DNA of 64,000 bases from Providencia burhodogranariea DSM 19968 (lineage in GTDB: Bacteria > Pseudomonadota > Gammaproteobacteria > Enterobacterales > Enterobacteriaceae): contig NZ_KB233227.1 of assembly GCF_000314855.2 (NCBI RefSeq), positions 28,351 through 92,350 on the forward strand, given 5' to 3'. The notes beneath the pieces are model-generated. The model was not told the DNA's origin. It saw only the letters and a list, made by a program, of their open reading frames with translations, and did no database searches. Below, one piece after another: positions 31,307-52,310 of this stretch. Position 1 is the first letter of the stretch, and each line of letters begins with the position of its first letter. Both the position numbers and the translations under genes were made by a program.

Positions 31307-31372
31307 CGCGCAGGGTGGATAATTATTGCGTGCAACGGCTACAGGCTTGTTGCCATTTTGCGCAATCATAAA
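31307..31372 (+). promoter_or_regulatory. XylS/BenR-type direct repeats and promoter of upper indole operon
   Basis: Two 15-bp boxes in the same direction: CGCG-N6-GGATA (31307-31321) and TGCG-N6-GGCTA (31327-31341), 20 bp start to start. They fit the XylS/BenR operator TGCA-N6-GGNTA with small changes. A candidate -10 CATAAA (31367-31372) begins after a 25-bp gap. The same repeat period and gap recur at 41177-41242. The rest of 30998-31306 shows no gene. Confidence 0.6.
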
Positions 31373-31429
31373 TCATGTTAATCAATTGTGAAATTATTGT
31401 GATTGAATGAGCGAAAAGAGGGCACAAAA

Positions 31430-32215
31430 ATGAAAGGTTTAAATGACAAAGTGGCAATCGTAACCGGAGGCGCAACCAAAATCGGTGCAACCGTTGCCCA
31501 AATATTGAGCTCATATGGTGTGAAAGTCACCATTTTTGATATTGATAAAGTCAATGGTGAAAAAGTGGCTCAATCTGAGCCGAGCATTGATTTTTTGGCT
31601 ATTGATATTACCGATGACCAACAACTTAAGCAGGGCATCGACAGGGTTGCGCAAAAGTATGGACAATTCGATTTTTTAGTTAATCTGGCCGCCACTTATC
31701 TTGATGAAGGCCAGTCATCCTCACGGCAGGATTGGATAACTGCTCTGAATATTAATGTAGTAAGTGCTGTGATGGCTGCGCAATTTGCACAACCGTATTT
31801 TGTCAAAGCAGGCAAGGGTGCAATCGTCAATTTTACCAGTATCTCCTCATCCGTTGCTCAAACGGGTCGTTGGCTCTATCCCGCATCCAAAGCCACCATG
31901 CTAGAAGTGACACGCAGTCAAGCGATGGACTATGCGCCAGATAGCATTCGAGTAAATTCAGTTTCGCCGGGTTGGACCTGGTCGCGAGTGATGGATGAAA
32001 TCACCAGCGGTGATCGCCAAAAAACTGACCGAGTGGCTGCCGATTATCACCTATTAAAACGGGTTGGTGACCCAGAAGAGGTGGCGCAAGTCGTTGCTTT
32101 TTTACTGTCTGATCTTGCCAGCTTTGTCACTGGCGCCGATTACGCTGTTGATGGCGGTTACTCCGCGATGGGGCCAGAACAGGCCAAACCTGCAATCCCT
32201 CGTCTTGCTGAGTAA
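31430..32215 (+). CDS. SDR-family dehydrogenase, probable indole-dihydrodiol/dioxindole dehydrogenase
   Basis: 261 residues from the ATG at 31430 (AGAGG upstream), with a weaker TTG at 31403. It has the Rossmann motif TGGATKIG near residue 13, NLAA in the middle, catalytic Ser in SISSS and YPASK. The C-terminal VDGGY is typical of classical SDRs. It is the first gene of the upper operon, directly before an indole/styrene monooxygenase. In the Acinetobacter iif cluster an SDR oxidises indole dihydrodiol to 3-hydroxyindolin-2-one, and the same or the next oxidation to isatin is the likely role here (inference). Confidence 0.8.
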   Translation: MKGLNDKVAIVTGGATKIGATVAQILSSYGVKVTIFDIDKVNGEKVAQSEPSIDFLAIDITDDQQLKQGIDRVAQKYGQFDFLVNLAATYLDEGQSSSRQDWITALNINVVSAVMAAQFAQPYFVKAGKGAIVNFTSISSSVAQTGRWLYPASKATMLEVTRSQAMDYAPDSIRVNSVSPGWTWSRVMDEITSGDRQKTDRVAADYHLLKRVGDPEEVAQVVAFLLSDLASFVTGADYAVDGGYSAMGPEQAKPAIPRLAE

Positions 32216-32261
32216 GACACGGTGACTTTGATTTTTGTGAAAAAGTATTGAGGAAAAAACT

Positions 32262-33506
32262 ATGCGTCGTATAGCAATCGTAGGTGGTGGTCAGGCGGGT
32301 ATGCCATTAGCATTAGGGCTATTAGATAAAGGCTATGAAGTTACAGTAGCCACCAACCGAACTCCCGATGATGTCAAAAATGGTCGCGTCATGTCCAGTC
32401 AGTGTATGTTCGATATCTCACTGCAATTTGAACGTGATTTAGGGATCAACTTTTGGGAAGACGAATGCCCACCAGTAGAAGGCATTGGTTTTACTGTCCC
32501 TCATCCAGAAAAACCCGGTGAGCAAGCGATTACATGGCGCTCACGTCTTGATAATTATGCGCAAGCTGTCGATCAGCGCATTAAAATGCCTTATTGGATG
32601 GAGCTGTTTGCTGCACGTGGTGGCAATCTGCATATTGAAGATGTTGGCGTTGCTGAGTTGGAAAAACTGGCTGACACTCATGATCTTGTGATATTAGCGG
32701 GTGGAAAAGGAGAAATCGTTAAGTTACTAGAACGTGATCCTTCTCGCTCCCCGTATGATAAGCCGCAACGTGCATTAGCACTAACCTATGTGCATGGCAT
32801 GTTACCAACACCTGAATATTCACAAGTCTCTTTTAACCTGATCCCCGGCGTTGGTGAGTACTTTGTGTTCCCATCACTCACTAACACAGGTGACTGCCAT
32901 ATTATGGTTTTTGAAGGGATTCCGGGAGGTCCAATGGATCAATGGAATGACGCTAGAACTCCTCAAGATCACTTGGCATACAGCAAAAAAATCCTCGAAA
33001 CCTACTTGCCGTGGGAAGCTGATCGTTGTCGACATATTGAATTGACCGACGATAACGGCATTTTAGCCGGTCGCTTTGCACCAACTGTACGCAAGCCAGT
33101 ACTCACATTACCTTCAGGTAAAAAAGTGTTCGGTTTAGGAGATGCATTAGTAACCAATGACCCACTGACCGGGCAAGGTTCTAACAACGCAACGAAAGCC
33201 AGCAAAGTCTATTACGATGCGATCCTTATGCATGGCGACAAGCCATTTACTGAGGAGTGGATGACCGATACATTTGAGCAGTTCTGGAAATACGGGCGTC
33301 ATGTCGTTGAATGGACGAATTCGTTATTAGCACCACCTGAGCCACATATCTTAAATTTATTGGGTGCTGCCCAACAATTACCTGCACTTTCACACACCAT
33401 TGCCAATGCCTTTAACTACCCACCAGTGCTATTTCCATGGTGGAAAGATGGGCATGCCTGTGAATCTTATATTCAATCTCAAATGATCGAAGAAGCCCGC
33501 GCTTAA
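32262..33506 (+). CDS. Styrene/indole monooxygenase, FAD-dependent oxygenase subunit (StyA/IifC-like)
   Basis: 414 residues, the usual length for group E flavoprotein monooxygenases. The N-terminal dinucleotide motif is AIVGGGQAGMPLALGL, followed by the family hallmark of NGRVMSSQCMFDISLQFER and the late FAD block GDALVTNDPLTGQGSNNATK. It uses reduced FAD delivered by a separate reductase, encoded 9 bp downstream, to epoxidise styrene or the indole 2,3-bond. With an isatin-hydrolase-like gene two genes later, indole is the better substrate guess. Colonies might make indigo as a side product. Confidence 0.88.
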   Translation: MRRIAIVGGGQAGMPLALGLLDKGYEVTVATNRTPDDVKNGRVMSSQCMFDISLQFERDLGINFWEDECPPVEGIGFTVPHPEKPGEQAITWRSRLDNYAQAVDQRIKMPYWMELFAARGGNLHIEDVGVAELEKLADTHDLVILAGGKGEIVKLLERDPSRSPYDKPQRALALTYVHGMLPTPEYSQVSFNLIPGVGEYFVFPSLTNTGDCHIMVFEGIPGGPMDQWNDARTPQDHLAYSKKILETYLPWEADRCRHIELTDDNGILAGRFAPTVRKPVLTLPSGKKVFGLGDALVTNDPLTGQGSNNATKASKVYYDAILMHGDKPFTEEWMTDTFEQFWKYGRHVVEWTNSLLAPPEPHILNLLGAAQQLPALSHTIANAFNYPPVLFPWWKDGHACESYIQSQMIEEARA

Positions 33507-33515
33507 GGGGAAGTT

Positions 33516-34076
33516 ATGAATATGCCAATGATTGCAGAGGATAGGCTGATGTGTGAAAGCGAATGGGGACATACTGAATTTGAGTCGAAGGCTTTGCGCA
33601 ATTTATTAGGTTGTTACCCTACAGGGGTAGCAATTGTCACCACACGCACGGCTGATGGACGTGATGTGGGTCTGACAATCAATTCGTTTGCTTCATTATC
33701 GCTTGATCCACCTCTGGTGCTCTGGAGTTTAGTTAACCATTCACCCAACTTAGATGTATTTCGTGATTGCACCCACTTCACGATCAATATCTTAGCTAAA
33801 GATCACCAAGAACTTGCGCTGCGCTTTGCCAATCCTCGGATCACTAATAAATTTGAGGATGTTGCAATGCATATCACACCTGAAGGGATCCCTGCCTTAC
33901 ATGGAGCGATCGCTACCTTAGTTTGTGAGAATCATAAGCAGGATCACATTGGCGATCATTTATTGATGATTGGCCATGTTCGCCGCATTGGCAGCGAAAA
34001 CGGTAAGCCATTAATTTTTCACAGCGGTAGTTTTACTGCCTTACATGATGCGCAATTAGCGCAGGAGACACTATGA
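33516..34076 (+). CDS. Flavin reductase for the monooxygenase (StyB/IifD-like)
   Basis: 186 residues of the flavin-reductase-like FMN/FAD-binding split-barrel fold: LLGCYPTGVAIVTTRTADG, GLTINSFASLSLDPPLVLWS, HFTINILAKDHQELALRFA. It reduces free flavin with NAD(P)H and hands it to the oxygenase. The first 20 or so residues before the domain are extra, and an internal start is possible. Its stop overlaps the next ATG by 4 bp. Confidence 0.88.
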   Translation: MNMPMIAEDRLMCESEWGHTEFESKALRNLLGCYPTGVAIVTTRTADGRDVGLTINSFASLSLDPPLVLWSLVNHSPNLDVFRDCTHFTINILAKDHQELALRFANPRITNKFEDVAMHITPEGIPALHGAIATLVCENHKQDHIGDHLLMIGHVRRIGSENGKPLIFHSGSFTALHDAQLAQETL

Positions 34077-34855
34077 ACCAGCAAACTTTAATGTCATTTG
34101 CCACTGAATTACAGAATGGGCACATTCGAGTTGTCGATCTGACTCAAACATTGTCACCGTCATTTCCTGCGCTGCAATTACCTGAGCAATTTGGTCAAGT
34201 GTGGTCATTTAGTATGGAGCAAATCTCTCGCTATGATGAAAATGGCCCCGGTTGGTATTGGAATAATTTTAGTTGTGGTGAACATACGGGTACCCACTTT
34301 GACGCGCCGATCCACTGGATTAGTGGTAAAGATCAAGCCAATAATACGGTAGATACTATTCCTGTACACCACTTTGTTGCTCCTGCGGTGGTTGTTGATG
34401 CGAGTAAAGAAGTTGCTGAAAATGACGATTGGGTGCTAACCGTTGATTTCTTACAACAATGGGAAGCTAAACACGGCAAAATTCCTGCGGCAGCATGGGT
34501 TTTATTACGAACTGATTGGTCTAAAAAAGCCGATAACCCAGAAGCATTTGTGAATATGCGTGAAAATGGCGCACACACGCCGGGCCCTTCACAGGAAGCG
34601 GTTGAATGGCTTATTGAGCAGCGTGATATTAAAGGCTTTGGAGTAGAAACTATCAATACGGATGCGGGGCAATCTTATAGCTGGCCTATCCCTTATCCAT
34701 GCCACACCTTAATGCACGGTAATAATAAATATGGGCTACAGTGCCTGAAAAACCTCGATCAGTTACCAGCAACTGGTGTTGTTATTGTTGCTGCGCCATT
34801 AAAGATTGAAGGAGGCTCGGGGAGTCCATTACGCGTTCTAGCGCTGGTGGGGTGA
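34073..34855 (+). CDS. Cyclase-family metal hydrolase, probable isatin hydrolase
   Basis: 260 residues of the kynurenine-formamidase-like cyclase family. The metal site HTGTHFDAPIHW gives His71, His75, Asp77 and His81, matching isatin hydrolase (HxGTHxD). VVDLTQTLSPSFP at the N-terminus and GVETINTDAGQ later are family blocks. Isatin hydrolase opens isatin to isatinate (2-aminophenylglyoxylate). Translation is coupled to the flavin reductase. Next to an indole monooxygenase this is the most economical reading, although a kynurenine-formamidase-like activity cannot be excluded from sequence. Confidence 0.75.
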   Translation: MNQQTLMSFATELQNGHIRVVDLTQTLSPSFPALQLPEQFGQVWSFSMEQISRYDENGPGWYWNNFSCGEHTGTHFDAPIHWISGKDQANNTVDTIPVHHFVAPAVVVDASKEVAENDDWVLTVDFLQQWEAKHGKIPAAAWVLLRTDWSKKADNPEAFVNMRENGAHTPGPSQEAVEWLIEQRDIKGFGVETINTDAGQSYSWPIPYPCHTLMHGNNKYGLQCLKNLDQLPATGVVIVAAPLKIEGGSGSPLRVLALVG

Positions 34856-34858
34856 GTT

Positions 34859-36472
34859 ATGACCATACAACCCAGCCCACAGGTGATTGTTGTAGGTAGC
34901 GGAATGAACTCCTTGATGTGTGCCGCCTTATTGGCGGTACGCGGAAAATCGGTATTGGTATTAGAGCGCAACGATAGGCTTGGAGGCTGCATTCGAACAG
35001 AAAGTCTCTATCCGGGTTATACCCATGATTTGCTCTCTTGTTGGTACTCGCTATTTGTGGGAAGCCCTGGCTATCAAGAGCTTGAGCCTCATTTAAAAAA
35101 ACAAGGGCTGGAATTTGCGCAATGTGACTACTCAACAGGACTGGTTCAGCCTAATGGGCAATCTATCGCATTAAAACGTGATATTGGTGAAGCAGCAAAA
35201 CAGCTCGATGAGCTAGCACCCGGCGATGGAACCATGTTTCGTCAAATGGCAGAAAAACTATTCGGTGAGGATGCCTCTCTGACCTTTGGTTTACTGGGGC
35301 AGAACCCTTATAGCGGTAGCATGTTAAAGCTATTGTTTAGCGAGTGGCGTAAGCGTGGTGTGGATGGATTACTCGACTTTACTAAAGCAGGCGTTGAGAG
35401 TTTTCGTCGCTGGTCAGAGCGCGAATTACAGCATGATTTTAGCCGAGCATTGATCGCACCTTGGGTATTGCATACGGGGCTAGGGCCTGATGAAGCAAGT
35501 TCTGCATTAATTGGCAAATTAACTTTTGCTGCGGTTGTTGCGGGTGGAATGCCTGTTGTTAAAGGGGGAAGCTTTCGTATTGTCGAGGCATTATCTCGAG
35601 TGATTGAACAACACGGTGGTCAATTAAAAACTTCCATGCATGTCGAGAAAATCATAACTCATGGTACGGGTAAGCAACGGCGTGCTAAGGGTGTCATCGT
35701 GAATGGAGCAATGATCACGGCTCAAGAAAGTGTGGTGTGTAATGTAACGCCAACTCAGCTTTATGGCAGTTTGCTTGATGATGTACCACCACAGGTAGCG
35801 CAACGTGCGAAAGGCTACCGTTATGGGCGAGCAGGAATGCAAATTCATTTTGCATTAAGCGCTCCTCCACCATGGTGTAATCCTGAATTACTTAATGTGC
35901 CATTGGTACATTTTACTGAAAGTATGGAACAAGTTTGTCTCTCGGTTACGCAAGCAAATAACGGTTATTTGCCTGATAAGCCAACCTTTGGAATTGGACA
36001 ACCGACGACGTTAGATCCAAGTCGTGCGCCTGAGGGCGGTTGGATCTTGTGGATCCAAATGCAAGAGTTACCGCGTCAATTGAAAGGGGATGCTGCAGGG
36101 GAAGTTAGCGTACCTGCTGACGGGCGTTGGAATGAACAAGTTCGTGAAGCAGTAGCGGATCGTGTTCAACAGCGTTTAGAACAAGTGATGCCGGGTGTTT
36201 CATCATTGATTGTTGGGCGCACCGCAATTTCTCCCGCGGATCTGGAAAACTATAACTGCAATCTTGTCGGTGGAGATCCCTATTCAGGTACTTGTTCTCC
36301 AGATCAATTTTTTTGGTTACGACCTTTTGCAGCTTCAGGGCAAACAAAAACACACCAAACTGCGGTCAAAAATTTATTTCATATTGGTGCATCAACTCAT
36401 CCGGGGCCCGGTTTGGGTGGCGGCTCAGGCTATCTAGTTGCACAAACATTAGCAGCAAAACGTAGGACGTAA
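34859..36472 (+). CDS. FAD-dependent oxidoreductase of the phytoene-desaturase (CrtI) type
   Basis: 537 residues. The N-terminal dinucleotide fold VIVVGSGMNSLMCAALLAVRG continues with LVLERNDRLGGCIRTE, and the C-terminal FAD block is HIGASTHPGPGLGGGSGYLV, as in CrtI-like and protoporphyrinogen-oxidase-like flavoenzymes. No carotenoid genes are nearby. It lies 3 bp after the isatin-hydrolase gene in an indole-type operon, so a two-electron oxidation of an indolic intermediate (indoxyl or dioxindole to isatin) is a reasonable guess, but no direct evidence identifies the substrate. Confidence 0.75.
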   Translation: MTIQPSPQVIVVGSGMNSLMCAALLAVRGKSVLVLERNDRLGGCIRTESLYPGYTHDLLSCWYSLFVGSPGYQELEPHLKKQGLEFAQCDYSTGLVQPNGQSIALKRDIGEAAKQLDELAPGDGTMFRQMAEKLFGEDASLTFGLLGQNPYSGSMLKLLFSEWRKRGVDGLLDFTKAGVESFRRWSERELQHDFSRALIAPWVLHTGLGPDEASSALIGKLTFAAVVAGGMPVVKGGSFRIVEALSRVIEQHGGQLKTSMHVEKIITHGTGKQRRAKGVIVNGAMITAQESVVCNVTPTQLYGSLLDDVPPQVAQRAKGYRYGRAGMQIHFALSAPPPWCNPELLNVPLVHFTESMEQVCLSVTQANNGYLPDKPTFGIGQPTTLDPSRAPEGGWILWIQMQELPRQLKGDAAGEVSVPADGRWNEQVREAVADRVQQRLEQVMPGVSSLIVGRTAISPADLENYNCNLVGGDPYSGTCSPDQFFWLRPFAASGQTKTHQTAVKNLFHIGASTHPGPGLGGGSGYLVAQTLAAKRRT

Positions 36473-36553: not shown

Positions 36554-37447
36554 ATGATTAAGAAAAAAATCAGTAAGCTTATAGCTGGTTCATGTCTCGG
36601 TGTTCTTTCATTTGGAGCAATCGCAACAGAGGGCGGCGGCTTAGGGATCTATCCTAATGGATTAGAGAACTTTATGTCGGGAGCACTGCCTCCATCAGGT
36701 GTTCATGTTTTGATGTATGGCGGTAATATGCATTATGACAGCGTTCGCGATAATAAAGGCGACAAAATCCCAATCCCCGGATTTAGTGTTAACGTAAATC
36801 TATTGGCACCTCGTTTGATTTGGGTAACAGATCAAAAGATATTAGGTGGTGATCTGGCTTTTCATACCATCATTCCATTACTTGATGTCACCGCAAAAGC
36901 AGCAGGAAAAAAAGATACCAGCCGTGGGTTGGGGGATGTGACATTTGGTCCCGCTTTAGGTTTTCATCCTTCAGCTGACTTACATTATGTTGTGGGCTTA
37001 GATGCTTATGCGCCTACGGGGAAATACAGTAAAACCGACCCGTCGAGTTTAGGAAAAAATTACTGGGCGTTACAGCCAGTCTGGGCCATTAGTTATATTC
37101 CACCCGTTGGTATTAATGCGGATTTAAAAATGATGTATGACTTTAATTTCCGTAATAATGATACTAAAACACGCTCAGGACAGGCATTACACGCAGACTA
37201 TGCATTAGGCTGGGGATTTGGTAATGGTTGGGTCGCAGGCTTGGGTGGCTACGCCTTCTGGCAAACAACAGAAGATAGCGGACCAAACTCGGCACAGGGT
37301 AAGGCACGAGCTTATGCAATTGGTCCATCAATCCGTTATGCTAATCAGCAAGGTTGGCTATTTACAGCCAAATGGGAAAAAGATTTTGAGGTTAGAAATC
37401 GTCCAGAAGGTTCACAAATCTTCTTAAAAGCATCAATTCCATTTTAA
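36554..37447 (+). CDS. SphA/MetA-pathway outer-membrane protein
   Basis: 297 residues with a signal peptide (KLIAGSCLGVLSFGAIA), then the family start EGGGLGIYPNGLENFMSGAL and a beta-barrel ending in FLKASIPF with terminal Phe. Proteins of this family are encoded in many aromatic-degradation operons and are thought to help hydrophobic aromatics cross the outer membrane. It is the last gene of the upper operon, with an intrinsic terminator 28 bp downstream. Confidence 0.8.
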   Translation: MIKKKISKLIAGSCLGVLSFGAIATEGGGLGIYPNGLENFMSGALPPSGVHVLMYGGNMHYDSVRDNKGDKIPIPGFSVNVNLLAPRLIWVTDQKILGGDLAFHTIIPLLDVTAKAAGKKDTSRGLGDVTFGPALGFHPSADLHYVVGLDAYAPTGKYSKTDPSSLGKNYWALQPVWAISYIPPVGINADLKMMYDFNFRNNDTKTRSGQALHADYALGWGFGNGWVAGLGGYAFWQTTEDSGPNSAQGKARAYAIGPSIRYANQQGWLFTAKWEKDFEVRNRPEGSQIFLKASIPF

Positions 37448-37474
37448 TAAATTAAATTTTTTGTCTTTTCGCAT

Positions 37475-37508
37475 ATAGCTCAGTAAATATTCGCTGAGCT
37501 ATCTTTTT
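37475..37508 (+). terminator. Terminator of the upper indole operon
   Basis: ATAGCTCAG / CTGAGCTAT with a 10-nt loop, followed by CTTTTTT. It separates the outer-membrane protein gene from the porin gene. Confidence 0.85.
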
Positions 37509-39539: not shown

Positions 39540-40547
39540 TTAAGCTTTTTTAATACTTTGACTTGGGCTTTCACCATAACGTTGTTTGTATTCGGCACTA
39601 AAGCGTCCCATGTGCGCAAAGCCCCAACGTAGTGCGACCCCCGTGACACTTGCCGCCTCACCTGATAATAATTCTGATCGTACACGTTCCATTCTTAAAT
39701 CACGTAAGTACTGCATCGGGCTGATGTCTAAAAATTCTTTAAAACCAGCATATAAACTGCGTAGGCTAACGCCTGCAATATGTGCAAGTTGTTCAACTGT
39801 AATTGGCTCATGAGCATGGGCTTCTAAATACTCTTGCACACGGCGAACATGCCTCGGACGGATAGTTGCACGCCGCATGCCTGAGTCCTCAGTATAATTA
39901 TGGTTCTGGGTGGATAGTAAGGTAACAGAGACTAATTGCTCGACTTGAGTAGCAATCAGCTTATGTTGCAGGAGGTCTGGTGAGCGAGTAGCACATTCAA
40001 TCAAATAATTCATTAAAGTACGCCAAGCAGTACAAGATTGCCATTCGAAACCAAGCTCAAAAACGAGCGGTTTATCAAGCGTATGTCCTAACTGACCGAC
40101 TAATGACCTTTCCAGCAGCGAGCGTGAAATTCGTAGCATTACCTGATCGTTATCACTGTTCCAACGCATACTTGTCGATTCTTCTGGGCTGAGTAATGAT
40201 GCCATTTTTGGCGTCGATTCTAAGTATTTCCCTCCGCTTTCAATAATAGCGCTACCCGATAGAGGCATTTGTACGAGAAAAAAATCTTGGAGTTGACCCG
40301 GTGAAATAAGCACATCAGCACCATAGCGAAGGCGGCTTAATGCAATATCGCCCATGGGAATATAATGCATACGAGCATCAAGACGTTGATGTGGATTTAG
40401 TAAATTAAACTGATGTGGTTTCATCACTCGGCCAACCATAGATTTGATCTCTTCTGGATCGGCCGAAGTGAATAATAAACGCTCTGTTGAACAGAGTTGA
40501 TTTTCAATCTGGGGTGCAGATGAATGGGACCACGAGTTGCTCAGCAT
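39540..40547 (-). CDS. AraC/XylS-family regulator of the indole catabolic genes
   Basis: 335 residues from the ATG at 40547, which has GGAG 8 nt upstream. The frame is open to 40625, but the first ATG there is made of the end of an ERIC-like repeat. The N-terminal half is an AraC_binding_2 sensing domain, and the C-terminal hundred residues hold two helix-turn-helix units (ITVEQLAHIAGVSLRSLYAG; VTGVALRWGFAHMGRFSAEY). Domain order matches BenR, XylS and the indole regulator IifR. Likely targets are the TGCA-N6-GGNTA-like repeats at 31307-31341 and 41208-41242. Confidence 0.85.
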   Translation of the reverse strand: MLSNSWSHSSAPQIENQLCSTERLLFTSADPEEIKSMVGRVMKPHQFNLLNPHQRLDARMHYIPMGDIALSRLRYGADVLISPGQLQDFFLVQMPLSGSAIIESGGKYLESTPKMASLLSPEESTSMRWNSDNDQVMLRISRSLLERSLVGQLGHTLDKPLVFELGFEWQSCTAWRTLMNYLIECATRSPDLLQHKLIATQVEQLVSVTLLSTQNHNYTEDSGMRRATIRPRHVRRVQEYLEAHAHEPITVEQLAHIAGVSLRSLYAGFKEFLDISPMQYLRDLRMERVRSELLSGEAASVTGVALRWGFAHMGRFSAEYKQRYGESPSQSIKKA

Positions 40548-40617
40548 CGCAGGATCTCCAAATAAAGTCGTCAGGCTATTATTGTTATGTACTCTGCTGG
40601 TGCCTGATCCATTCATT

Positions 40618-40732
40618 CCCGTCATATTTTGAGCTGCACTGTTGTTGGCGACTATTTAGTATCCGAATCATATCTGTACTGATTATCCGGATAGCTTAGG
40701 TTGACGCCTAGACGCATCTTTAATTATTAAGG
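40618..40732 (+). repeat. ERIC-like repeat overlapping the regulator 5' region
   Basis: It starts CCCGTCATATTTTGAGCTGC and ends TTTAATTATTAAGG. Read on the minus strand, its edge supplies an ATG (ATGACGGGA) in frame with the AraC-type gene. Confidence 0.5.
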
Positions 40733-43561: not shown

Positions 43562-45058
43562 ATGGTTGCATTACAACCCATCAAAATAGCAATTTTAGCT
43601 ATGGGTGGTGAAGGTGGTGGTGTTCTCGCTGACTGGATTGTGAACTTAGGTGAGGATAATGGCTACTTTGCGCAAACAACTTCTGTACCCGGTGTTGCTC
43701 AGCGTACTGGCGCGACGATTTATTATGTTGAGTTATTTCCGGGAGCAGATAACCCATTAACGCCAAGACCTGTATTGGCATTAATGCCAATGCCGGGAGA
43801 TGTTGATGTAGTGTTAGCCTCTGAACTGATGGAAGCTGGGCGAGCGGTGCAGCGCGGATTTGTCACCCCAGAACGTACGACATTAGTCAGCTCGACACAC
43901 CGTGTTTATTCTATTGCGGAAAAATCGGCAATGGGTGATGGTCGTGTTGATAGCAAAGCCTTAATTCGCCATGCCGGACTTGCTGCGCGTCAGTTTATTC
44001 ATTTTGATATGGAAAAAGCGGCGCAGCAAAGCGGTAGCGTGATCAGTGCCGTATTGTTTGGTGCTTTGTTCGGCTCTGGTGTTCTCCCTTTTAGCCGCTC
44101 ACAATTTGAAGAAACCATTGTGCGGGGTGGTGTCGGTGTTAAACCAAGTTTACGGGCATTTTCTCTTGGCGCTGAAAAGGCTGCTCATCCTGAAGAACCT
44201 CACGAAACACAAGTAGCTCAGATAACACCTCATACCGCAAAAAATAAGCACGTAGCCGAATTATTGGCACGAGTTGAACGTGATTTTCCCCAACATGTTC
44301 ATTATTTGGCAATTGAGGGGGTACGCCGATTAATTGATTATCAAGACCCAGCATATGCCTCCCTTTATTTAGACCGCGTAGCACAACTATTTAGCCAAGA
44401 AGGTGGTAGTGATGCGCGCTTACAGCGTGCATTAGTTCGTCATTTAGCGCTTTGGATGTCTTATGAAGACACCATTCGGGTGGCAGATCTAAAAATTCGA
44501 GACAGCCGTTTTCAACGTGTTCGCAACGAAGTACATGCAAATGATAGCCAGTTACTCGATATCAATGAATTTATGCATCCAAGAATTGAAGAAATTTGCG
44601 AAACGCTTCCCAAAAACCTTGGTACGTGGTTGATGCGGCCACATTGGTTACACAAAACGGTTCGCAAATTCACCCAAAAGGGTCGCACGATCACTACCAG
44701 TTCGTTGGGCGGCTTCTTACAATTATATCTACTTGCAGCATGGCGACGCGGTCGGCGCACAACATTACGCTATCAGCTAGAAACTCAGCGAATTGAAGGT
44801 TGGCTATCTGCGGTAGAAAAGGCGGCTCAGACTAACCCTGCACTTGCGACCGAAATTGCGCAATGTCAGCGGGTCGTGAAAGGTTATAGCGATACACATT
44901 CTCGCGGGCTACGTAACTTCCAAACCTTAATGGAAATTGTTGAACGCTATGGTGCTCAACTCGCTCCGGCTAATTTACGTGAGTTACGTGAGGCCGCTTT
45001 AGCCGATGAGCATGGTAATGAATTGCGCAAGTGCCGCCAACGTTTGGCTATGGAATAA
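43562..45058 (+). CDS. IOR beta subunit, long form with C-terminal extension
   Basis: 498 residues. The first 200 or so form the IorB/gamma 2-oxoacid oxidoreductase domain (ILAMGGEGGGVLADWIVNL, TSVPGVAQRTGATIYYVELF). The remaining 300 are an extra, helical and Arg-rich domain found on proteobacterial long IorB proteins (DUF6537-like), with unknown role. It lies 10 bp after the alpha gene with a strong ribosome site (GAGGGGG). Both subunits are needed for oxidative decarboxylation. Confidence 0.85.
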   Translation: MVALQPIKIAILAMGGEGGGVLADWIVNLGEDNGYFAQTTSVPGVAQRTGATIYYVELFPGADNPLTPRPVLALMPMPGDVDVVLASELMEAGRAVQRGFVTPERTTLVSSTHRVYSIAEKSAMGDGRVDSKALIRHAGLAARQFIHFDMEKAAQQSGSVISAVLFGALFGSGVLPFSRSQFEETIVRGGVGVKPSLRAFSLGAEKAAHPEEPHETQVAQITPHTAKNKHVAELLARVERDFPQHVHYLAIEGVRRLIDYQDPAYASLYLDRVAQLFSQEGGSDARLQRALVRHLALWMSYEDTIRVADLKIRDSRFQRVRNEVHANDSQLLDINEFMHPRIEEICETLPKNLGTWLMRPHWLHKTVRKFTQKGRTITTSSLGGFLQLYLLAAWRRGRRTTLRYQLETQRIEGWLSAVEKAAQTNPALATEIAQCQRVVKGYSDTHSRGLRNFQTLMEIVERYGAQLAPANLRELREAALADEHGNELRKCRQRLAME

Positions 45059-45068: not shown

Positions 45069-45491
45069 ATGAGTCTGCTTAAATTTACTCGACCACATAG
45101 AATTCTTTTCTCAGAGTGTGACCCTGCGGGAATTGTCTTTTATCCGCAATATTTCATTATGTTTAACAATCTATTAGAGCACTGGGTAGATCAACTGATT
45201 CCCCAAGGGTTTGCGGGTTACATTCTTGAACAGCGTTTTGGTTTACCGACTGTCTATCTCGAAGCTGAATTTAAGGCGATTAGTCGGATGGGTGATGATG
45301 TTGAACTTCAATTACAGGTTGAGCGTATTGGGGGGAAATCCATTACGTTACACCAAACCTGCACCAGCGTAAGTGGCGAGCTACGTATGCAAGTCACTCA
45401 AACTTTTGTCACGACTTCATTAGAAACACATCAGGCGATTGCTATCCCTGATGAGCTTTATCACGCCTTAACCCAGCAGCAACCTGTGTGA
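45069..45491 (+). CDS. Hotdog-fold acyl-CoA thioesterase (4-hydroxybenzoyl-CoA type)
   Basis: 140 residues from the ATG at 45069 (AAGGA upstream; the frame extends earlier into the IOR beta gene). The 4HBT signature ECDPAGIVFYPQYFIMFNN carries the catalytic Asp. It hydrolyses aryl-CoA thioesters. Encoded between the CoA-forming IOR and the aryl-CoA hydroxylase, it probably releases the hydroxylated acid for ring cleavage and recovers CoA. Confidence 0.85.
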   Translation: MSLLKFTRPHRILFSECDPAGIVFYPQYFIMFNNLLEHWVDQLIPQGFAGYILEQRFGLPTVYLEAEFKAISRMGDDVELQLQVERIGGKSITLHQTCTSVSGELRMQVTQTFVTTSLETHQAIAIPDELYHALTQQQPV

Positions 45492-45519: not shown

Positions 45520-47835
45520 ATGAATATCGTTTGTATCGGTGGCGGTCCCGCAGGGCTTTACTTCGGCTTACTGATGAAATTACAGGATCCACGAAATCGT
45601 ATTGTGATTGTTGAACGAAATCGTCCCTATGACACGTTTGGTTGGGGAGTCGTATTTTCTGATGCCACATTAAGTAACTTGCGTAGAGCTGATCCCGTGT
45701 CGGCAGAAACCATTTCGGCTGAATTTAGTCATTGGGATGATATCGATATTCACTTTAAAGGTGTCTGTAATCGCAGTGGTGGTCATGGTTTCATTGGTAT
45801 TGGGCGTAAAAAGTTACTGAATATCTTACAAGATCGCTGCCTTGAAGTTGGCGTAGAGTTAGTATTTGAAACGCAAGTGACTGACGATCAAGAAATAGCA
45901 CGTCAATATGACGCAGATCTGATCATTGCTTCTGATGGGATCAATAGCGCAGTACGTACTCGGTACGAAAATGTATTTAAGCCCGATATTGATCAGCGTC
46001 GTTGCCGTTTTGTTTGGTTAGGGACGAAGAAGATCTTTGACGCATTTACTTTCTTATTTGCTGAGAACGAACACGGTTGGTTTCAAGTTCACGCCTATCA
46101 ATTCCAAGAAGGTTTATCAACGTTTATCGTTGAAACCACTGAGGAGACTTGGTTAAAAGCTGGCATCGATCAAATGTCTCAGGAAGAGGGCGTTGCTTAC
46201 TGTGAAACTCTGTTTGCTCCATGGCTGGATGGCGAAAAGTTAATTGCAAATGCCGCCCATTTACGTGGAGCCGCTATTTGGATCCGTTTTCCTCGCGTCA
46301 TTTGTGACAACTGGGTGCACTGGACAACGCCGACAAGCAGTAAAGACGTACCAGTGGTATTGATGGGCGATGCAGCGCATACAGCACACTTCTCTATTGG
46401 CTCAGGGACTAAGTTAGCACTTGAAGATGCAATTGAATTAACTGAAAGCTTAAAAGCAACACACGGTAACTTGCGCAAAGGCTTAGAACACTACCAAAAA
46501 GTGCGTAGTGTTGAAGTTCTAAAAATTCAAAATGCAGCGCGTAACTCAACTGAGTGGTTTGAAAATATCAGTCGCTACGAAAACCTTGAGCCAGAGCAGT
46601 TCGCGTATTCATTGCTGACCCGTTCACAACGTATTTCTCATGAGAATTTGCGGGTGCGCGATGCACAATGGCTGCAAAATTATGAGAACTGGTTTGCGAC
46701 AAAATCCGGTATCGAAGCCAGCTCAGATTCGCAACAAATTCCACCAATGTTAACGCCTTATCGCTTAAGGGGCATCGAGCTAAAAAATCGTGTCATTGCC
46801 TCACCAACACTGCTTTATTGTGCAACTAATGGGCTTGTCAGCGATTTTCATCTCGTTCATTTAGGTAGCCGAGCTTTAGGCGGAGTCAGTCTTATCATGA
46901 CTGAAATGACCGCAATTTCACCGATAGCAAGAATGACTGAAGGTTGTCCAGGTATTTGGAATGATCAGCAAGTTGATGCTTGGAAAAACATTACTCAATT
47001 TGTTCATCAAAAAACTGATGCAAAAATAGGTATTCAGTTAGGCCATGCTGGTCGTCGAGGTTCGACTCAACGTGGTTGGGAAAAAGAAAATCACCCATTA
47101 ATAGAAGGTAACTGGCCTTTAGTTAGTGCATCAGCGTTACCTTACTTACCGAATATTTCACAGATACCTTCTGAGCTAACTGAAATTCAGATGGTTGAAA
47201 TCATTGAACAGTTTGTTGAAGCCACGAAACGCGCAGATAAAGCAGGTTTTGACTGGCTTGAGATACAGGCCGGTCATGGTTATCTGTTATCGAGCTTCAT
47301 TTCACCATTAACCAATCTACGAACTGATAGCTTTGGTGGCACTTTAGAAAATCGGCTGCGTTTTCCTTTGGCAGTAGTCAGTGCAGTTAGGCATGTGTGG
47401 CCAAGTGACAAACCGCTTTCAGTACGTATATCAACAACAGATTGGGTAGAAGGTGGCACAACTGTTGATGAAGCTGTGCTGATAGGGCAAGCGATGCATC
47501 AGGCTGGCGCGGATATGGTTGATTGCTCTTCTGGTGAAGTCTCACCATTACAACGACCTGTATATGGACGTATGTATCAAACACCAATGGCTGACCGTAT
47601 TCGTAATGAAGGCAATGTACCTGTTATTGCTGTTGGTGCCATCACTGAGGCGGATCAAGTTAATAGTATCATTGCTTCAGGACGTGCTGATTTATGTGCA
47701 TTATCGCGCCCACTATTGTCCGACCCTGCTTGGGTTCTGCATGAGTGTGCCCGTTTTGGCTGGAATTCAGTGAATTGGCCTGCTCCATATGAATATGGTC
47801 GCCAACAACTGCTACAGCAATCCAAAAGCCGCTAA
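45520..47835 (+). CDS. Fused flavin monooxygenase / old-yellow-enzyme: 2-aminobenzoyl-CoA or salicylyl-CoA hydroxylase family
   Basis: 771 residues in two parts. Residues 1 to about 390 are a class A flavin monooxygenase ([17 protein letters not shown] at the start, [17 protein letters not shown] near 285). Residues from about 408 are an NADH:flavin oxidoreductase of the OYE type ([38 protein letters not shown]). This architecture is that of 2-aminobenzoyl-CoA monooxygenase/reductase of Azoarcus and its salicylyl-CoA 5-hydroxylase relatives. With the upstream genes suggesting isatinate, anthraniloyl-CoA is the favoured substrate and hydroxylation at C5 the favoured outcome. Whether the reductase half also acts is open. 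Confidence 0.85.
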
Positions 47836-47864
47836 TCGCCATCACCCGAATAGGAGTAAAGCCG

Positions 47865-48992
47865 ATGAGTACTCAGTCCCATGATCAATATAGAGAAAAT
47901 GTTGCAGGACGTGCTGATGTCGAAGATACGCCTGAGCTGGTGGCGTATTACAAAGATTTAGCTAACTTAAAAACAGGTGCGTTATGGACTGTTGCTAACA
48001 AAATTGAGCCTTGGCAGCCAAAGTCTCAGTCAGTTCCTGTGTTATGGCGTTATCGTGACTTACGCGACCATGTATTACGCTCGGTCGAGCTAGTTACACC
48101 TGAAAAAGCAGGGCGTCGGGTGGTTTATTTAAATAATCCAGGTCGACAAGATGTTGCCGCAGCAGTGGGTTGGCTCTATTCAGGTTTGCAGGTGATGCAT
48201 CCAGGGGAAGCGGCATCAGCTCACGCACACTCTTCATCAGCACTGCGCTTCATTATGGAAGGCAAAGGCGCTTACACCATCGTTGAAGGGCAAAAAATGA
48301 TGTTGGAAGCGAATGATTTTGTATTAACGCCAAATGGTACATGGCATGAGCATGGTGTTGCAGCAGATGGCCTACCTTGTATCTGGCAAGATGGCTTAGA
48401 TATTCCATTGGTTAACGCGATGGAAGCAGGCTTCTACAAAGTACACCCAGACATGCATCAAGTGGAAACTCACCCAGTAGATTATCCCGTAGGTATGTGG
48501 GGTGGCGCGGCACTACGCCCGCATCATATTGGCTGGGATAAACCTTATTCACCACTTTTTAAATATCAGTGGGGGCCAACCTACGAAGCGTTGAAGCGTG
48601 CAGCCAAAGCCACTGATGGATCACCGTTTGATGACATTCTCATGCAATACACCAACCCATTAACGGGTGGACCTGTGATGCCAACCATTGGCGCCAGTAT
48701 GCAACTATTACGACCGGGTTTTGTGGGTAAAGCTCATCGTCATACGGGAAGTTTTATTTATCAAGTTGCTAAAGGCCAAGGCTATTCGGTGATTAACGGT
48801 CAGCGGTTTGATTGGCAAGAGCGCGATATCTTCTGTGTACCGTCATGGATGTTTCATGAACATGTCAACACATCACAGAATGATGATGCTTGTCTGTTCT
48901 GCTTTAGCGATTTACCCGTGATGAACTCACTTGGATTGTATTACGAAGAAGCGCTCGCTGAAAACGACGGGCACCAAAAAATTATTGGCTAA
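47865..48992 (+). CDS. Gentisate 1,2-dioxygenase-family ring-cleavage enzyme
   Basis: 375 residues with two cupin domains. The first has the iron-ligand set in HAHSSSALRFIMEGKGAYT (about 121) and TWHEHG, the second HRHTGSFIYQVAKGQGYSV (about 292) and MFHEH. It opens 2,5-dihydroxylated benzoates between C1 and C2. Gentisate is the family substrate, but 5-hydroxyanthranilate, with NH2 in place of OH at C2, is an alternative suggested by the neighbouring genes and would yield an amide. Ribosome site AGGAG. Confidence 0.85.
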   Translation: MSTQSHDQYRENVAGRADVEDTPELVAYYKDLANLKTGALWTVANKIEPWQPKSQSVPVLWRYRDLRDHVLRSVELVTPEKAGRRVVYLNNPGRQDVAAAVGWLYSGLQVMHPGEAASAHAHSSSALRFIMEGKGAYTIVEGQKMMLEANDFVLTPNGTWHEHGVAADGLPCIWQDGLDIPLVNAMEAGFYKVHPDMHQVETHPVDYPVGMWGGAALRPHHIGWDKPYSPLFKYQWGPTYEALKRAAKATDGSPFDDILMQYTNPLTGGPVMPTIGASMQLLRPGFVGKAHRHTGSFIYQVAKGQGYSVINGQRFDWQERDIFCVPSWMFHEHVNTSQNDDACLFCFSDLPVMNSLGLYYEEALAENDGHQKIIG

Positions 48993-49052
48993 TTATTTTA
49001 ATCATTTACGTGAAGATTTAAGTCAGGTGAGCCTGACAAAAGGAGAAGAATT

Positions 49053-49964
49053 ATGCGTCTTATTACTTATCGTTCAGATGTTACCGCTGCCGCACGTTTA
49101 GGTGCCATTGTTGATAATCAGGTGGTTGATTTAGCTAGATTAGCGGAAGAGCGAGGGCAATATCTGCCAGATAATATGTTGGACTTCATTGATCTTGGGC
49201 CGCAAGGTGTACGTTCTGGGACTGAGTTATTAAATGTGTATCAAGGACAATTTCCCGCAGGCACTGCTTGGCCTGTACAGAATGTGAAAATTTTAGCGCC
49301 AATTCCTCAACCAAGAAAAAATATTTTTGGTATCGGTTTGAACTATGTTGAGCACGTTGCTGAATCTAGTCGCACATTAGATACATCAAAAGAGTTACCA
49401 AAAGAGCCGGTTATTTTTTCTAAGCCACCAACAAGTGTGATTGGACCCGGCGATGCAATAGAGCATAACAGTAATATTACCCAACAACTGGACTGGGAAG
49501 TTGAGCTTGCGGTGATTATAGGAACACGGGCAAAAGGTGTCTCAGAAGCCGACGCATTGAACTATGTGTTTGGTTATAGCTTGATGATTGATATGAGCGC
49601 GCGTGACTGCCGTCGTGCAGGTCAATGGATTTACTCAAAAGGTCAAGATACTTATGCACCATTTGGCCCTTGTATTGTTACTGCGGATGAAATTCCTGAT
49701 CCACATTCCTTAAATCTGAGCCTAAAAGTGAATGGTATCATCAAGCAAGATTCCAATACTCGCCATATGCTGTTTAACGTCAACGCATTGATTGCAGATA
49801 TCAGCAAAGGGATCACTCTTGAATCGGGCGATATTATTGCAACGGGTACTCCAGAAGGTGTCGGAGCAGGGCGTTCACCGCAAGAGTGGGTATGGCCGGG
49901 TGATGTGATTGAGGCTTATGTCGAAAAAATTGGTGAATTGCGCCACCCAGTTGTTGCGGTATAA
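49053..49964 (+). CDS. FAH-family hydrolase, probable maleylpyruvate hydrolase
   Basis: 303 residues with the fumarylacetoacetate hydrolase fold: NIFGIGLNYVEHV, EPVIFSKPPTSVIGPGD, the metal ligands in DWEVELAVIIG and MIDMSARDC, and IIATGTPEGVGAG. After ring cleavage it would split maleylpyruvate, or its amide analogue, to pyruvate and maleate or maleamate. No maleylpyruvate isomerase gene is present, so the direct-hydrolysis version of the gentisate route is indicated. Confidence 0.85.
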   Translation: MRLITYRSDVTAAARLGAIVDNQVVDLARLAEERGQYLPDNMLDFIDLGPQGVRSGTELLNVYQGQFPAGTAWPVQNVKILAPIPQPRKNIFGIGLNYVEHVAESSRTLDTSKELPKEPVIFSKPPTSVIGPGDAIEHNSNITQQLDWEVELAVIIGTRAKGVSEADALNYVFGYSLMIDMSARDCRRAGQWIYSKGQDTYAPFGPCIVTADEIPDPHSLNLSLKVNGIIKQDSNTRHMLFNVNALIADISKGITLESGDIIATGTPEGVGAGRSPQEWVWPGDVIEAYVEKIGELRHPVVAV

Positions 49965-49982
49965 CGCAAAGGAGAGCAGCAA

Positions 49983-51014
49983 ATGTTAAATTTACCTCAA
50001 TTTAAGGCAGCGGCTGTTCAAGCCGCACCTGTTTTCCTTGATACGGATGCAACTGTCGATAAAGTGTGCCATCTCATCGAAGAGGCCGCGGATAATGGTG
50101 CTTCGCTTGTCGCATTCCCTGAAGTATTTGTTTCTGGTTATCCCTATTGGAGCTGGGTAATGAACCCGATTGAGGGTAGCCCATGGTTTGAGAAACTGTG
50201 CAAATCAGCGATTGAAGTACCCGGCCCTGAAATTCGTAAAATTGCTCAAGCAGCCGCTCGCCACCATATCAACGTAGTGATTGGGGTGAATGAACGTAAT
50301 CCAAATGGGATCGCGACGTTGTATAACACCTTAGTGACAATTTCTGATGAAGGTAAAATATTAGGCCGTCATCGCAAATTAGTGCCAACGTGGGCAGAAA
50401 AATTGACTTGGGCAAATGGTGATGCATCATCTTTGAAAGTTCACAAAACCAGTATTGGGCCTTTAGGTGCTTTGGCTTGTGGTGAGAATACCAATACGCT
50501 TGCACGTTTCTCTTTATTAGCCCAAGGCGAGCTAGTGCATATTGCTAGCTACATTGCTCTACCTGTTGCGCCTAAAGATTATGATATGGCTGAGGCGATT
50601 CGGTTAAGGGCTGCGGCTCACTGCTTTGAAGGTAAAGTATTCACTATCGTTTCTTGCTCTACAGTGTCAGAGGAAATTGTAGAAGCCATGGCACAATCAC
50701 ATCCGCAATCACGCGAATTACTCGCGCGTCCTAATAGTGCTTTTTCGGGCATTATCGGGCCAGATGGGCGTGTAATCGGCGAACCTCTGATAGACCAAGA
50801 GGGCATTGTCTATGCAGATATCGATTTAAATCGCTGCATTCAACCACGCCAAATGCATGATATTACTGGCCACTATAATCGTTTTGATATTTTCGATTTA
50901 CAAGTGAATCGCCGTCCATTGACCGCTGCACATTTTCATCATGATGGGCAAGATGTCGATGAACTCAATCAATTCGCAGAACAAGATGATGGTTTACAGG
51001 AGAAAGGGCTATGA
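49983..51014 (+). CDS. Nitrilase-superfamily C-N hydrolase
   Basis: 343 residues with the Glu-Lys-Cys triad at E47 (AFPEVFVSGYPYW), K132 (GRHRKLVPTWAEK) and C166 (GALACGENTNTLAR). The motifs fit true nitrilases (branch 1) better than aliphatic amidases. Its stop overlaps the maleate isomerase start by 4 bp, so the two are co-made. That pairing suggests it frees maleate from a nitrogen-bearing precursor such as maleamate. Hydrolysis of indole-3-acetonitrile or another nitrile feeding the pathway is the other possibility. Confidence 0.8.
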   Translation: MLNLPQFKAAAVQAAPVFLDTDATVDKVCHLIEEAADNGASLVAFPEVFVSGYPYWSWVMNPIEGSPWFEKLCKSAIEVPGPEIRKIAQAAARHHINVVIGVNERNPNGIATLYNTLVTISDEGKILGRHRKLVPTWAEKLTWANGDASSLKVHKTSIGPLGALACGENTNTLARFSLLAQGELVHIASYIALPVAPKDYDMAEAIRLRAAAHCFEGKVFTIVSCSTVSEEIVEAMAQSHPQSRELLARPNSAFSGIIGPDGRVIGEPLIDQEGIVYADIDLNRCIQPRQMHDITGHYNRFDIFDLQVNRRPLTAAHFHHDGQDVDELNQFAEQDDGLQEKGL

Positions 51015-51766
51015 GTGGCGCACGTACATTTCGTATTGGGCAAATCGTGCCCTCTTCTAATACCACAATGGAAACGGAGATCCCCGCTATTTTACGAGCG
51101 CGTGAATCACTGTTTGCCGAGCGCTTTACTTTCCATTCAAGTCGTATGCGTATGAAGAAAGTAACGAAAGATGAATTAGCGAAAATGGATGCTGATAGTG
51201 ATCGCTGCGCTATTGAGCTATCTGATGCTGCGGTTGATGTATTAGGCTATGCCTGCTTAGTAGCGATTATGAGTATGGGGAAAGGCTACCATCGTATTTC
51301 TGAAAAGCGATTGTTTCAACGAACAATAGACAATGGTCACTCTGCACCTGTCGTGACCAGTGCTGGCGCTCTTGTTGATGGGTTACATGCTGTGGGTGCC
51401 AAGCGTATTTCAATTCTAACGCCTTACATGAAACCGCTAACTCAGTTGGTTATCGATTATATTGAAAGTGAAGGAATTGAAGTCGTTGACAGTATTTCGT
51501 TAGAAATCCCGGATAACCTTGATGTTGGCCGCCAAGATCCGTTAGCGCCCGTTGAAATTACTAAAAAGCTGAATACCAATGTAGATGTGATAGTTGCTTC
51601 TGCTTGTGTACAAATGCCTTCATTACCATCCGTTCAATTGATCGAAGATCGTATCGGTTTACCTGTATTGTCATCATCAGTGGCGACAACTTACATGATG
51701 CTGAAAAAATTGGGTTTGGACACTCGGGTTGATGGTTTTGGGTCACTACTTACTGGAAAGTTTTAA
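51011..51766 (+). CDS. Maleate cis-trans isomerase (NicE-like)
   Basis: 251 residues of the Asp/Glu racemase superfamily. FRIGQIVPSSNTTMETEIP and FTFHSSRMRMKKVTKDEL are characteristic of maleate isomerase, and the two catalytic cysteines are C82 (LGYACLVAIM) and C199 (SACVQMPSLP). It turns maleate into fumarate for the TCA cycle, completing the ring-cleavage route. It is translationally coupled to the C-N hydrolase, as maleate isomerase is linked with maleamate amidase in nicotinate pathways. Confidence 0.88.
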   Translation: MSGARTFRIGQIVPSSNTTMETEIPAILRARESLFAERFTFHSSRMRMKKVTKDELAKMDADSDRCAIELSDAAVDVLGYACLVAIMSMGKGYHRISEKRLFQRTIDNGHSAPVVTSAGALVDGLHAVGAKRISILTPYMKPLTQLVIDYIESEGIEVVDSISLEIPDNLDVGRQDPLAPVEITKKLNTNVDVIVASACVQMPSLPSVQLIEDRIGLPVLSSSVATTYMMLKKLGLDTRVDGFGSLLTGKF

Positions 51767-51851
51767 ACAAATTATGTTAAGTGGTCGTTTTTCTTCTGCT
51801 AACCTTTTAATATCGAATGAAATTACACATTCTATTAGACAAGAGGAACAG

Positions 51852-52310
51852 ATGTCAGACTCTAAAATATTTGTTGATAATTATCTGCCTGCCCTACTGG
51901 GGCAGGCATGGATGCTGGTATCGTCAGAGTTTCATGCCGTTGTTGAGGCACATGGCTTGTCTGTATTGGAATGGCGTGTACTTTCGACACTTGCTGATAA
52001 TGGTTCTATGGGAATTACTGAACTCTCGCAAAAAACAGTCAGTAAGCAGCCGACTATTACGCGTGTATTGCAAAGACTAGAGCAACAAGGGCATGTGATT
52101 AGGCACAATAATCATAATGGTAGTGATAGAAGGATTACTCTTGTGAGTATGACTTCTAGCGGCATGTTATTAGTCGAAGGATTGCTTAAAGAAGCAGAAT
52201 TACACGAACAATCGGTTTTAGCGCCACTTGGCACACGTAAAAGCAAAATGCTAAAGCAGGTTTTACAGGAGTTGATTGAACGTCATAACATTACGGATAT
52301 GAAAAAATAA
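51852..52310 (+). CDS. MarR-family regulator at the end of the catabolic operon
   Basis: 152 residues from the ATG at 51852 (AAGAGGAACAG before it). The frame is open upstream, but that part overlaps the spacer. The winged helix spans LSVLEWRVLSTLADNGSMG to VSKQPTITRVLQRLEQQG, with DRRITLVSMTSSG in the wing. MarR repressors of aromatic operons usually sense an acid or CoA thioester intermediate. The palindrome at 41256 is a candidate operator. It is 85 bp after the isomerase, on the same strand. Confidence 0.85.
   Translation: MSDSKIFVDNYLPALLGQAWMLVSSEFHAVVEAHGLSVLEWRVLSTLADNGSMGITELSQKTVSKQPTITRVLQRLEQQGHVIRHNNHNGSDRRITLVSMTSSGMLLVEGLLKEAELHEQSVLAPLGTRKSKMLKQVLQELIERHNITDMKK

Follow-up and report, generated by a model that had tools for sequence, protein, structure and literature searches.

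What might a set of indole-oxidizing genes be doing beside genes for a CoA-dependent breakdown of aromatic compounds, in a member of an indole-making genus? The question is raised by a 64,000-nt window (the whole stretch analysed, to which all positions refer) of Providencia burhodogranariea DSM 19968 (NZ_KB233227.1; genome 4.58 Mb), in which an upper operon (31430-37447, intergenic gaps of -4 to 81 bp) and a lower operon (41353-52310, gaps of -4 to 85 bp) are separated by genes for an AraC regulator and a porin. We think it probable (at about 0.64) that both operons form a single pathway, which would take indole to fumarate and pyruvate via isatinate, 2-aminobenzoyl-CoA and 5-hydroxyanthranilate. 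Genes were identified by open reading frame (ORF) calls and Pfam/NCBIfam profile scans, and every gene that an earlier sequence-only reading had named within 31307-52310, in putting forward an indole-to-fumarate route through CoA thioesters, proved to be present:

31430..32215, + strand: SDR dehydrogenase, GS-B/IifB-like, from the first ATG of an ORF listed from 31403 (GS-B in PMC9871250)
32262..33506, + strand: styrene/indole monooxygenase (SMO), GS-C/IifC-like (Smoa_sbd, 145.6 bits)
33516..34076, + strand: flavin reductase, GS-D-like (profile scans)
34073..34855, + strand: putative isatin hydrolase (IH), GS-A-like cyclase (448 bits to PDB 5nmp; motif HTGTHFDAPIH)
34859..36472, + strand: CrtI-like FAD oxidoreductase, GS-O-like (CrtO 160 bits, crtI_fam 94 bits, both below cut-off)
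36554..37447, + strand: MetA-pathway outer-membrane protein, GS-E-like (PF13557, 218 bits)
37475..37502, + strand: terminator-like stem-loop 3' of the upper operon (consensus match only)
39540..40625, - strand: AraC-family regulator, AndR-like (NF041686, 195.8 bits, cut-off 350)
41353..43551, + strand: IorA-like subunit with thiamine pyrophosphate (TPP) and 4Fe-4S domains, proposed isatinate:ferredoxin oxidoreductase alpha (profiles, IH linkage)
43562..45058, + strand: IorB-like subunit with DUF6537 (NF006179/PRK08312, 714 bits, cut-off 348)
45069..45491, + strand: 4HBT thioesterase (TE; PF13279, 51 bits)
45520..47835, + strand: fused flavin monooxygenase/OYE of ACMR architecture (NF006101/PRK08255, 1283.5 bits, cut-off 1078)
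47865..48992, + strand: gentisate-dioxygenase-like cupin (GDO), proposed 5-hydroxyanthranilate 1,2-dioxygenase (550 bits to 3bu7)
49053..49964, + strand: FAH-family hydrolase, proposed maleamylpyruvate hydrolase (PF01557, 233.6 bits)
49983..51014, + strand: nitrilase-family C-N hydrolase (NIT), proposed maleamate amidase (profiles, motifs)
51011..51766, + strand: maleate cis-trans isomerase (MAI), Asp/Glu-racemase family (324 bits to 4fq7)
51852..52310, + strand: MarR regulator, HpaR-like, with a likely ATG start internal to an ORF listed from 51729 (TIGR02337, 73.5 bits, cut-off 121)

In the proposed route, indole would be oxidized by SMO with the flavin reductase, the SDR would yield dioxindole, and this would be converted to isatin by the CrtI-like enzyme (a candidate dioxindole oxidase) or by air, and thence to isatinate by IH. 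IorAB would carry out the oxidative decarboxylation of isatinate directly to 2-aminobenzoyl-CoA, so that no CoA ligase would be needed. The fused enzyme would hydroxylate C5 and, having an altered reductase half, would release the still aromatic 5-hydroxyanthraniloyl-CoA, from which the thioesterase would liberate 5-hydroxyanthranilate. The cupin would then cleave the ring beside the amino-bearing carbon to give maleamylpyruvate, to be split by the FAH hydrolase into pyruvate and maleamate; the nitrilase-family enzyme would convert maleamate to maleate and ammonia, and the isomerase maleate to fumarate. The lower operon, for which we infer all the substrates, is the real find, and probably represents a new form of the aerobic, CoA-dependent degradation of aromatics.

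The upper half is already published, as the P. rettgeri GS-2 indole cluster of 2023 (PMC9871250): its genes map one to one onto GS-B, C, D, A, O and E of that GS-A to GS-R set, from the same genus. Indole consumption by Providencia, which the sequence-only reading found striking, is therefore not new, the GS-2 upper cluster having been expressed and partly assayed. Its oxygenase and reductase (GS-C and GS-D) oxidized indole, and indigo was abolished on adding GS-B; GS-O gave no pigment; and addition of GS-A abolished a Tyrian purple isomer, a pigment that the authors traced to brominated isatin (PMC9871250). The published account differs from ours in proposing a catechol route, in having no lower operon in its sections on the cluster, and in naming the GS-A product, from its m/z of 164.0355, N-formylanthranilate, a standard of which, according to the authors, was difficult to come by. 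N-formylanthranilate and isatinate share the formula C8H7NO3, and the solved structures nearest to the window cyclase are all isatin hydrolases (5nmp, 448 bits; 5nnb and 5nna, 350; 4j0n, 274), which suggests that the yellow GS-A product is isatinate. The window cyclase, which has the isatin hydrolase motif (as given in PMC6117287) at residue 71, would hydrolyse isatin to isatinate, as its homologues do. In Variovorax, a C8H7NO3 metabolite of the indoleacetate (iad) route was found not to be N-formylanthranilate (preprint PMC12633357). A two-component oxygenase and an SDR likewise act on indole in the iif/ind systems of Acinetobacter O153 and Cupriavidus SHE and in the WHOP ipo/dho system, but there anthranilate is formed by IifA, followed in WHOP by antABC/catBCA (PMC6221969, PMC12538310), whereas Providencia has isatin hydrolase and IorAB.

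How might isatinate be used? It is 2-aminophenylglyoxylate, a 2-oxo acid, and a TPP/ferredoxin oxidoreductase could therefore yield 2-aminobenzoyl-CoA from it. That IorAB would do so is supported by gene linkage, as IorAB genes adjoin isatin hydrolase genes in alpha-, beta- and gammaproteobacteria and in actinobacteria. Among 369 genomes sampled at class level, IorA (E <= 1e-180) was found in 13 and IH (E <= 1e-60) in six, with both in five, including our own; when the latter is set aside, IorA is present in four of five IH genomes (Fisher p 3e-6), the two genes being 54 to 120 bp apart in G337, G225 and G279 and on a common contig in G267. A second sample comprised the best 80 of at least 590 IorA relatives (the closest being from Providencia, at 92-94% identity), with ORFs in high-GC loci chosen by codon-position score. 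IH (>=45%) lay within the stretch in 41 of these 80, and in 36 of the 51 with full 10-kb flanks (31/34 at an IorA identity of >=73%, 5/17 below it). Among plasmids, 34 records in 14 named groups, Tsukamurella included, have IorA and IH together, where IorA occurs in 49 records and IH in 57, 50 of them listed; these records are not independent, since 18 of the 49 IorA records are from Sulfitobacter.

The iad locus of Variovorax and Bradyrhizobium likewise includes homologues of IorAB as well as a gene resembling that of isatin hydrolase, and isatinic acid was detected there (PMC9613470), but its upper genes are of Rieske and CoA-ligase kinds, and the fetched Variovorax stretches lack the cupin/FAH/nitrilase set. 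Overexpression in Variovorax of iadC-K2, a set that excludes the Ior pair iadA and iadB, led to accumulation of C8H7NO3 and C7H7NO (preprint PMC12633357), a build-up that would fit IorAB as the missing consumer. In the open-licence PMC literature (subscription papers being outside the search) we found no description of the conversion of isatinate to 2-aminobenzoyl-CoA by IorAB, nor of ring cleavage of 5-hydroxyanthranilate to maleamate. A TPP enzyme of decarboxylase/synthase type, from a family other than that of IorAB, adjoins isatin hydrolase in Deinococcus psychrotolerans (L163, 15725-17365), and is possibly an alternative isatinate decarboxylase.

Do the two operons belong together? In a sample of 24 genomes from the genus, including our own (50-residue SMO matches in G018 and G021 were not counted), SMO and the full fused enzyme are both present in 18 and both absent from six (p 1e-5 without our own genome), so the joint occurrence elsewhere that the sequence-only reading had left to comparative genomics is indeed seen. 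Because the genes are linked and the species related, this split is to be read as a unit kept or lost jointly, not as 24 independent trials; a chance neighbourhood of the two operons is rejected in view of the co-occurrence. SMO is 90-93% identical in the 17 other genomes. As a marker of the pathway, SMO alone was rejected: four of the six class-level genomes with SMO (E <= 1e-90) hold distant copies (39-43%), and in these four neither IorA nor IH reaches its cut-off.

The fused enzyme has the FAD monooxygenase and OYE architecture of 2-aminobenzoyl-CoA monooxygenase/reductase, with an N-terminal half whose best matches are VioD structures. What sets the window copy apart is a Gln in place of the OYE His that lies three residues before HG[YF]L: it has EIQAGHGYL, and solved OYEs read E-x-H-x-x-H-G (EIHAAHGYL in 7o0t, ELHMAHGYL in 8uaj/3hf3). 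Among 45 rows (the window and 44 loci of >40% identity, loci with only short flanks being left out), all 14 with Gln have a gentisate-type cupin, FAH and thioesterase nearby, and all 31 with His are without a gentisate-type cupin (L196 by eye; some stretches are short, the shortest 4.3 kb). On a tree of the fused enzyme, in which the motif column was kept, two Gln/His changes are needed; one change suffices in 0/200 bootstrap trees, and 0/500 label shuffles were as low as the observed tree. One Gln branch comprises Providencia, Xenorhabdus, Pseudomonas gessardii, Caballeronia, Cupriavidus and an Alcaligenes pair, and the other Novosphingobium. All 18 copies taken from the genus have Gln. One Providencia genome has a second full-length copy (G017:C1:1455290-1457575), with no full-length SMO match nearby.

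Neighbours of the fused enzyme in other loci include genes for CoA ligase, enoyl-CoA hydratase, acyl-CoA dehydrogenase and RidA, with kynureninase in several; as it is the His-type copies that adjoin beta-oxidation and CoA-ligase genes, the family appears to be one of 2-aminobenzoyl-CoA enzymes. Since the known enzyme gives 5-hydroxyanthraniloyl-CoA when NADH is limiting (report cited in PMC3534580), it is plausible that a weak reductase half would yield the same product. The Azoarcus evansii pathway likewise has a monooxygenase/reductase acting on 2-aminobenzoyl-CoA, but proceeds by CoA ligase, reduction and beta-oxidation (PMC4539516), where Providencia has IorAB, Gln in the OYE half, a thioesterase and ring cleavage.

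What, then, is the substrate of the cupin? Gentisate is probably bypassed, the cupin acting on 5-hydroxyanthranilate with the nitrogen kept at ring cleavage. Cutting between C1 and the amino-bearing C2 would leave a carboxamide in the product, and a C-N hydrolase beside the cupin is to be expected if maleamylpyruvate and maleamate follow; such chemistry would employ every enzyme gene of the lower operon. In 23 fetched cupin loci (lowest identity 58%, filter 36%; L204-L218 and short loci left out), a C-N hydrolase at >=63% is present in 15, and in all nine plasmid records with NIT at >=60% the cupin is no more than 1.4 kb away. As a small control, two loci with less similar gentisate-type dioxygenases have no C-N hydrolase annotation. 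The cupin keeps histidines in HAHSSSALRF at 120 and WHEHG at 160, and we take the HxH and WHxHG histidines to be the Fe site of gentisate 1,2-dioxygenase. NIT has FPE at 45, HRK at 130 and CGE at 166 (all three in 15/16 relatives at >=45%), the Glu, Lys and Cys of which are presumably the nitrilase superfamily triad. MAI, which keeps both cysteine motifs (GYACL and SACVQ), is of the same family as the isomerase of the nicotinate (nic) lower pathway, in which maleamate is converted to maleate and then to fumarate; the amidase of the lower operon, being of the nitrilase family, is presumably unlike NicF. The solved 'gentisate dioxygenase' that matches the window cupin, 3bu7, has as its source Silicibacter pomeroyi, which we take to be Ruegeria pomeroyi; if it comes from R. 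pomeroyi DSS-3 (megaplasmid loci L150/L159), its operon context suggests another substrate.

How are these genes combined in other organisms? Alcaligenes faecalis AU14 and Paenalcaligenes hominis share a gene order of MarR, IorA, IorB, TE, fused enzyme, cupin, FAH, C-N hydrolase and IH. Next come the iad genes (reductase, Rieske pair, CoA ligase, thiolase), and after them SDR, SMO, flavin reductase and CrtI-like genes: one lower operon with two upper gene sets, for indoleacetate and indole. SMO (E <= 1e-30; 48-79% identical) is present in eight of ten IorA-bearing genomes or records searched. The entire lower operon is also found, together with IH and next to an ABC transporter, on the Caballeronia plasmid pSBC1_4, which lacks any SMO-type gene. 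Indole oxidizers do not all have the same lower half: in G225, SMO, IorA and IH occur with beta-oxidation genes and a fused enzyme of His type. Two further assemblies may be mentioned. A Tsukamurella tyrosinosolvens plasmid (L162) has an FMO-like monooxygenase, SDR, CrtI-like oxidase, IorAB, isatin hydrolase and fused enzyme, together with CoA ligase, thioesterase, a short cupin and FAH, and looks like a parallel assembly with another first oxygenase. An uncultured actinobacterium (L080, 5749-16151) has two CrtI-like genes (38% and 45%) next to those for isatin hydrolase, IorAB and the fused enzyme, a hint that proteins of the CrtI-like kind have a role close to isatin.

Loci in Ruegeria pomeroyi, Sulfitobacter sp. 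THAF37 and Shinella PSBB067 hold IorAB, thioesterase, C-N hydrolase, cupin, FAH, isomerase and IH, with CoA-ligase/thiolase genes of the iad kind (and the Rieske pair in Ruegeria and Sulfitobacter). No fused hydroxylase was found in the fetched stretches of these three organisms, and Shinella has a homologue on its other replicon. An aldehyde dehydrogenase gene is nearby, as is, in Shinella, one with the annotation tyramine oxidase subunit B. A hydroxylase would be needless if the substrate were already 5-hydroxylated, as are serotonin and 5-hydroxyindoleacetate, and our guess is that the module there serves 5-hydroxyindoles. A more general idea, to which we give a little less than an even chance, is of a modular 'isatinate node': an oxidoreductase would make 2-aminobenzoyl-CoA directly from the ring-opened product of many indoles, a hydroxylase, its fused reductase turned off twice in evolution, would pass on the ring still aromatic, a 5-hydroxyanthranilate dioxygenase would open it, and nitrogen would be lost last, at maleamate hydrolysis. 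The same module would then serve indole, indoleacetate and perhaps, in Ruegeria, Sulfitobacter and Shinella, 5-hydroxyindoles (serotonin products), and 3bu7 would be a 5-hydroxyanthranilate dioxygenase.

Several observations weigh against the single pathway. The lower-operon steps, and that of the CrtI-like enzyme, are deduced from the genes. At class level eight of the 13 IorA genomes are without IH at the cut-off, and among plasmids IH is without IorA in 16 of the 50 listed and IorA without a listed IH in 15 of 49. A need for IorAB in forming anthranilate is made less likely by iadC-K2, which, without the Ior genes, restored anthranilate in a locus-deletion strain (preprint PMC12633357). The Gln/His split is a correlation, and reduction may survive the change to Gln; in Tsukamurella and Rhodococcus it is a His-type copy of the fused enzyme that accompanies FAH, a thioesterase and a short cupin of a different sort. 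The P. gessardii genome has no SMO (search at E <= 1e-30). In five of the 23 cupin loci the sole C-N hydrolase is a distant one (33-35%) and in three it is missing (L078, at a contig end, L149 and L153), and NIT at >=60% accompanies the cupin (>=60%) in just eight of 16 plasmid records.

This last absence of a close NIT from half of the records counts in favour of the best-surviving rival, in which the amino group would be lost before cleavage and an ordinary gentisate dioxygenase, maleylpyruvate hydrolase and maleate isomerase would follow. A cupin, an FAH hydrolase and an isomerase together make up the textbook gentisate set, the cupin scores 309.1 bits to the gentisate 1,2-dioxygenase model (TIGR02272), and gentisate was reported in older work on Alcaligenes (Claus and Kutzner 1983, as cited in PMC6221969). 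We nevertheless regard it as unlikely: that score is below the cut-off of 442.1, the operon has no deaminase, and the C-N hydrolase, so constantly close to the cupin where it occurs on plasmids and lacking from the annotation of the two other gentisate-type loci, would be left without a role. Gentisate as the ring-cleavage substrate is thus the part of the sequence-only reading, which assigned the C-N hydrolase no task, that we would give up; the route through isatin, isatinate and CoA thioesters is well backed, because the gene sets co-occur and other phyla, too, show linkage of the lower set to isatin hydrolase.

A role of the lower operon in the use of some other 2-oxo acid or of salicylate, with the indole genes as chance neighbours, is improbable. 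The family names, indolepyruvate oxidoreductase and salicylyl-CoA 5-hydroxylase, would suit such a role, but the sets are present or absent jointly in all 24 genus genomes, IH is found near IorAB across phyla, the operon has neither CoA ligase nor aminotransferase, IorA is well below the curated indolepyruvate ferredoxin oxidoreductase cut-off (TIGR03336; 292.4 against 650.9 bits), and Alcaligenes aquatilis QD168, with an annotated SdgC-like protein, did not grow on salicylate (PMC6460240). Scarcely tenable is the published view of indole passing through anthranilate and salicylate to catechol, since the catechol and salicylate of P. rettgeri GS-2, which do tell against our pathway, were identified tentatively by liquid chromatography-mass spectrometry (PMC9871250), the 'N-formylanthranilate' of that study is isomeric with isatinate, intradiol catechol dioxygenase (PF00775) is in 0/24 genus genomes, our own included (extradiol dioxygenases were not searched), and Rieske oxygenase (PF00848) is absent from our genome and occurs in 11/18 genus genomes with the pathway and 4/6 without.

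Around the pathway, a DcaP/RafY-type porin gene that the sequence-only reading had passed over lies between the operons (37695-39119; PF16966, 457.9 bits), and in the Providencia and Xenorhabdus loci L002, L003, L005 and L048 nothing matches it over half its length or more. Just upstream of the pathway is a gene for a SoxR-type regulator (29971-30468, above cut-off), divergent from which are genes for what, on inspection by eye, would be a DoxX-like protein and an RND efflux pair; this region (25152-30468) is possibly tied to redox-active indigoids. Terminator-like sites in the scanned region numbered 13 (8.8 +/- 2.9 in shuffles), the stem at 37475-37502 being weak alone. A promoter scan of 30900-41500 gave 22 sites against 28.3 expected, and an Rfam scan of 28000-56000 gave no matches at gathering scores.

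If both operons do form a single pathway from indole to fumarate and pyruvate, they would provide genes for a step that has been open since 1983, the fate of isatin-derived anthranilate in degraders of indole and indoleacetate. There would be a function for oxidoreductases named for indolepyruvate and for enzymes called 'salicylyl-CoA hydroxylase' and 'gentisate dioxygenase', perhaps including the solved structure 3bu7, and the reported catechol route in Providencia would be spoken against. Providencia can make and degrade indole simultaneously (Muller 1986, as cited in PMC6221969). A tryptophanase-like gene is present in all 24 genus genomes, none above the strict TIGR02617 cut-off, the P. 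burhodogranariea copy fitting that model best and passing the broader tryptophanase model NF009709. An indole-making genus would thus carry, in 18 of its 24 sampled genomes, the genes to consume this signal.

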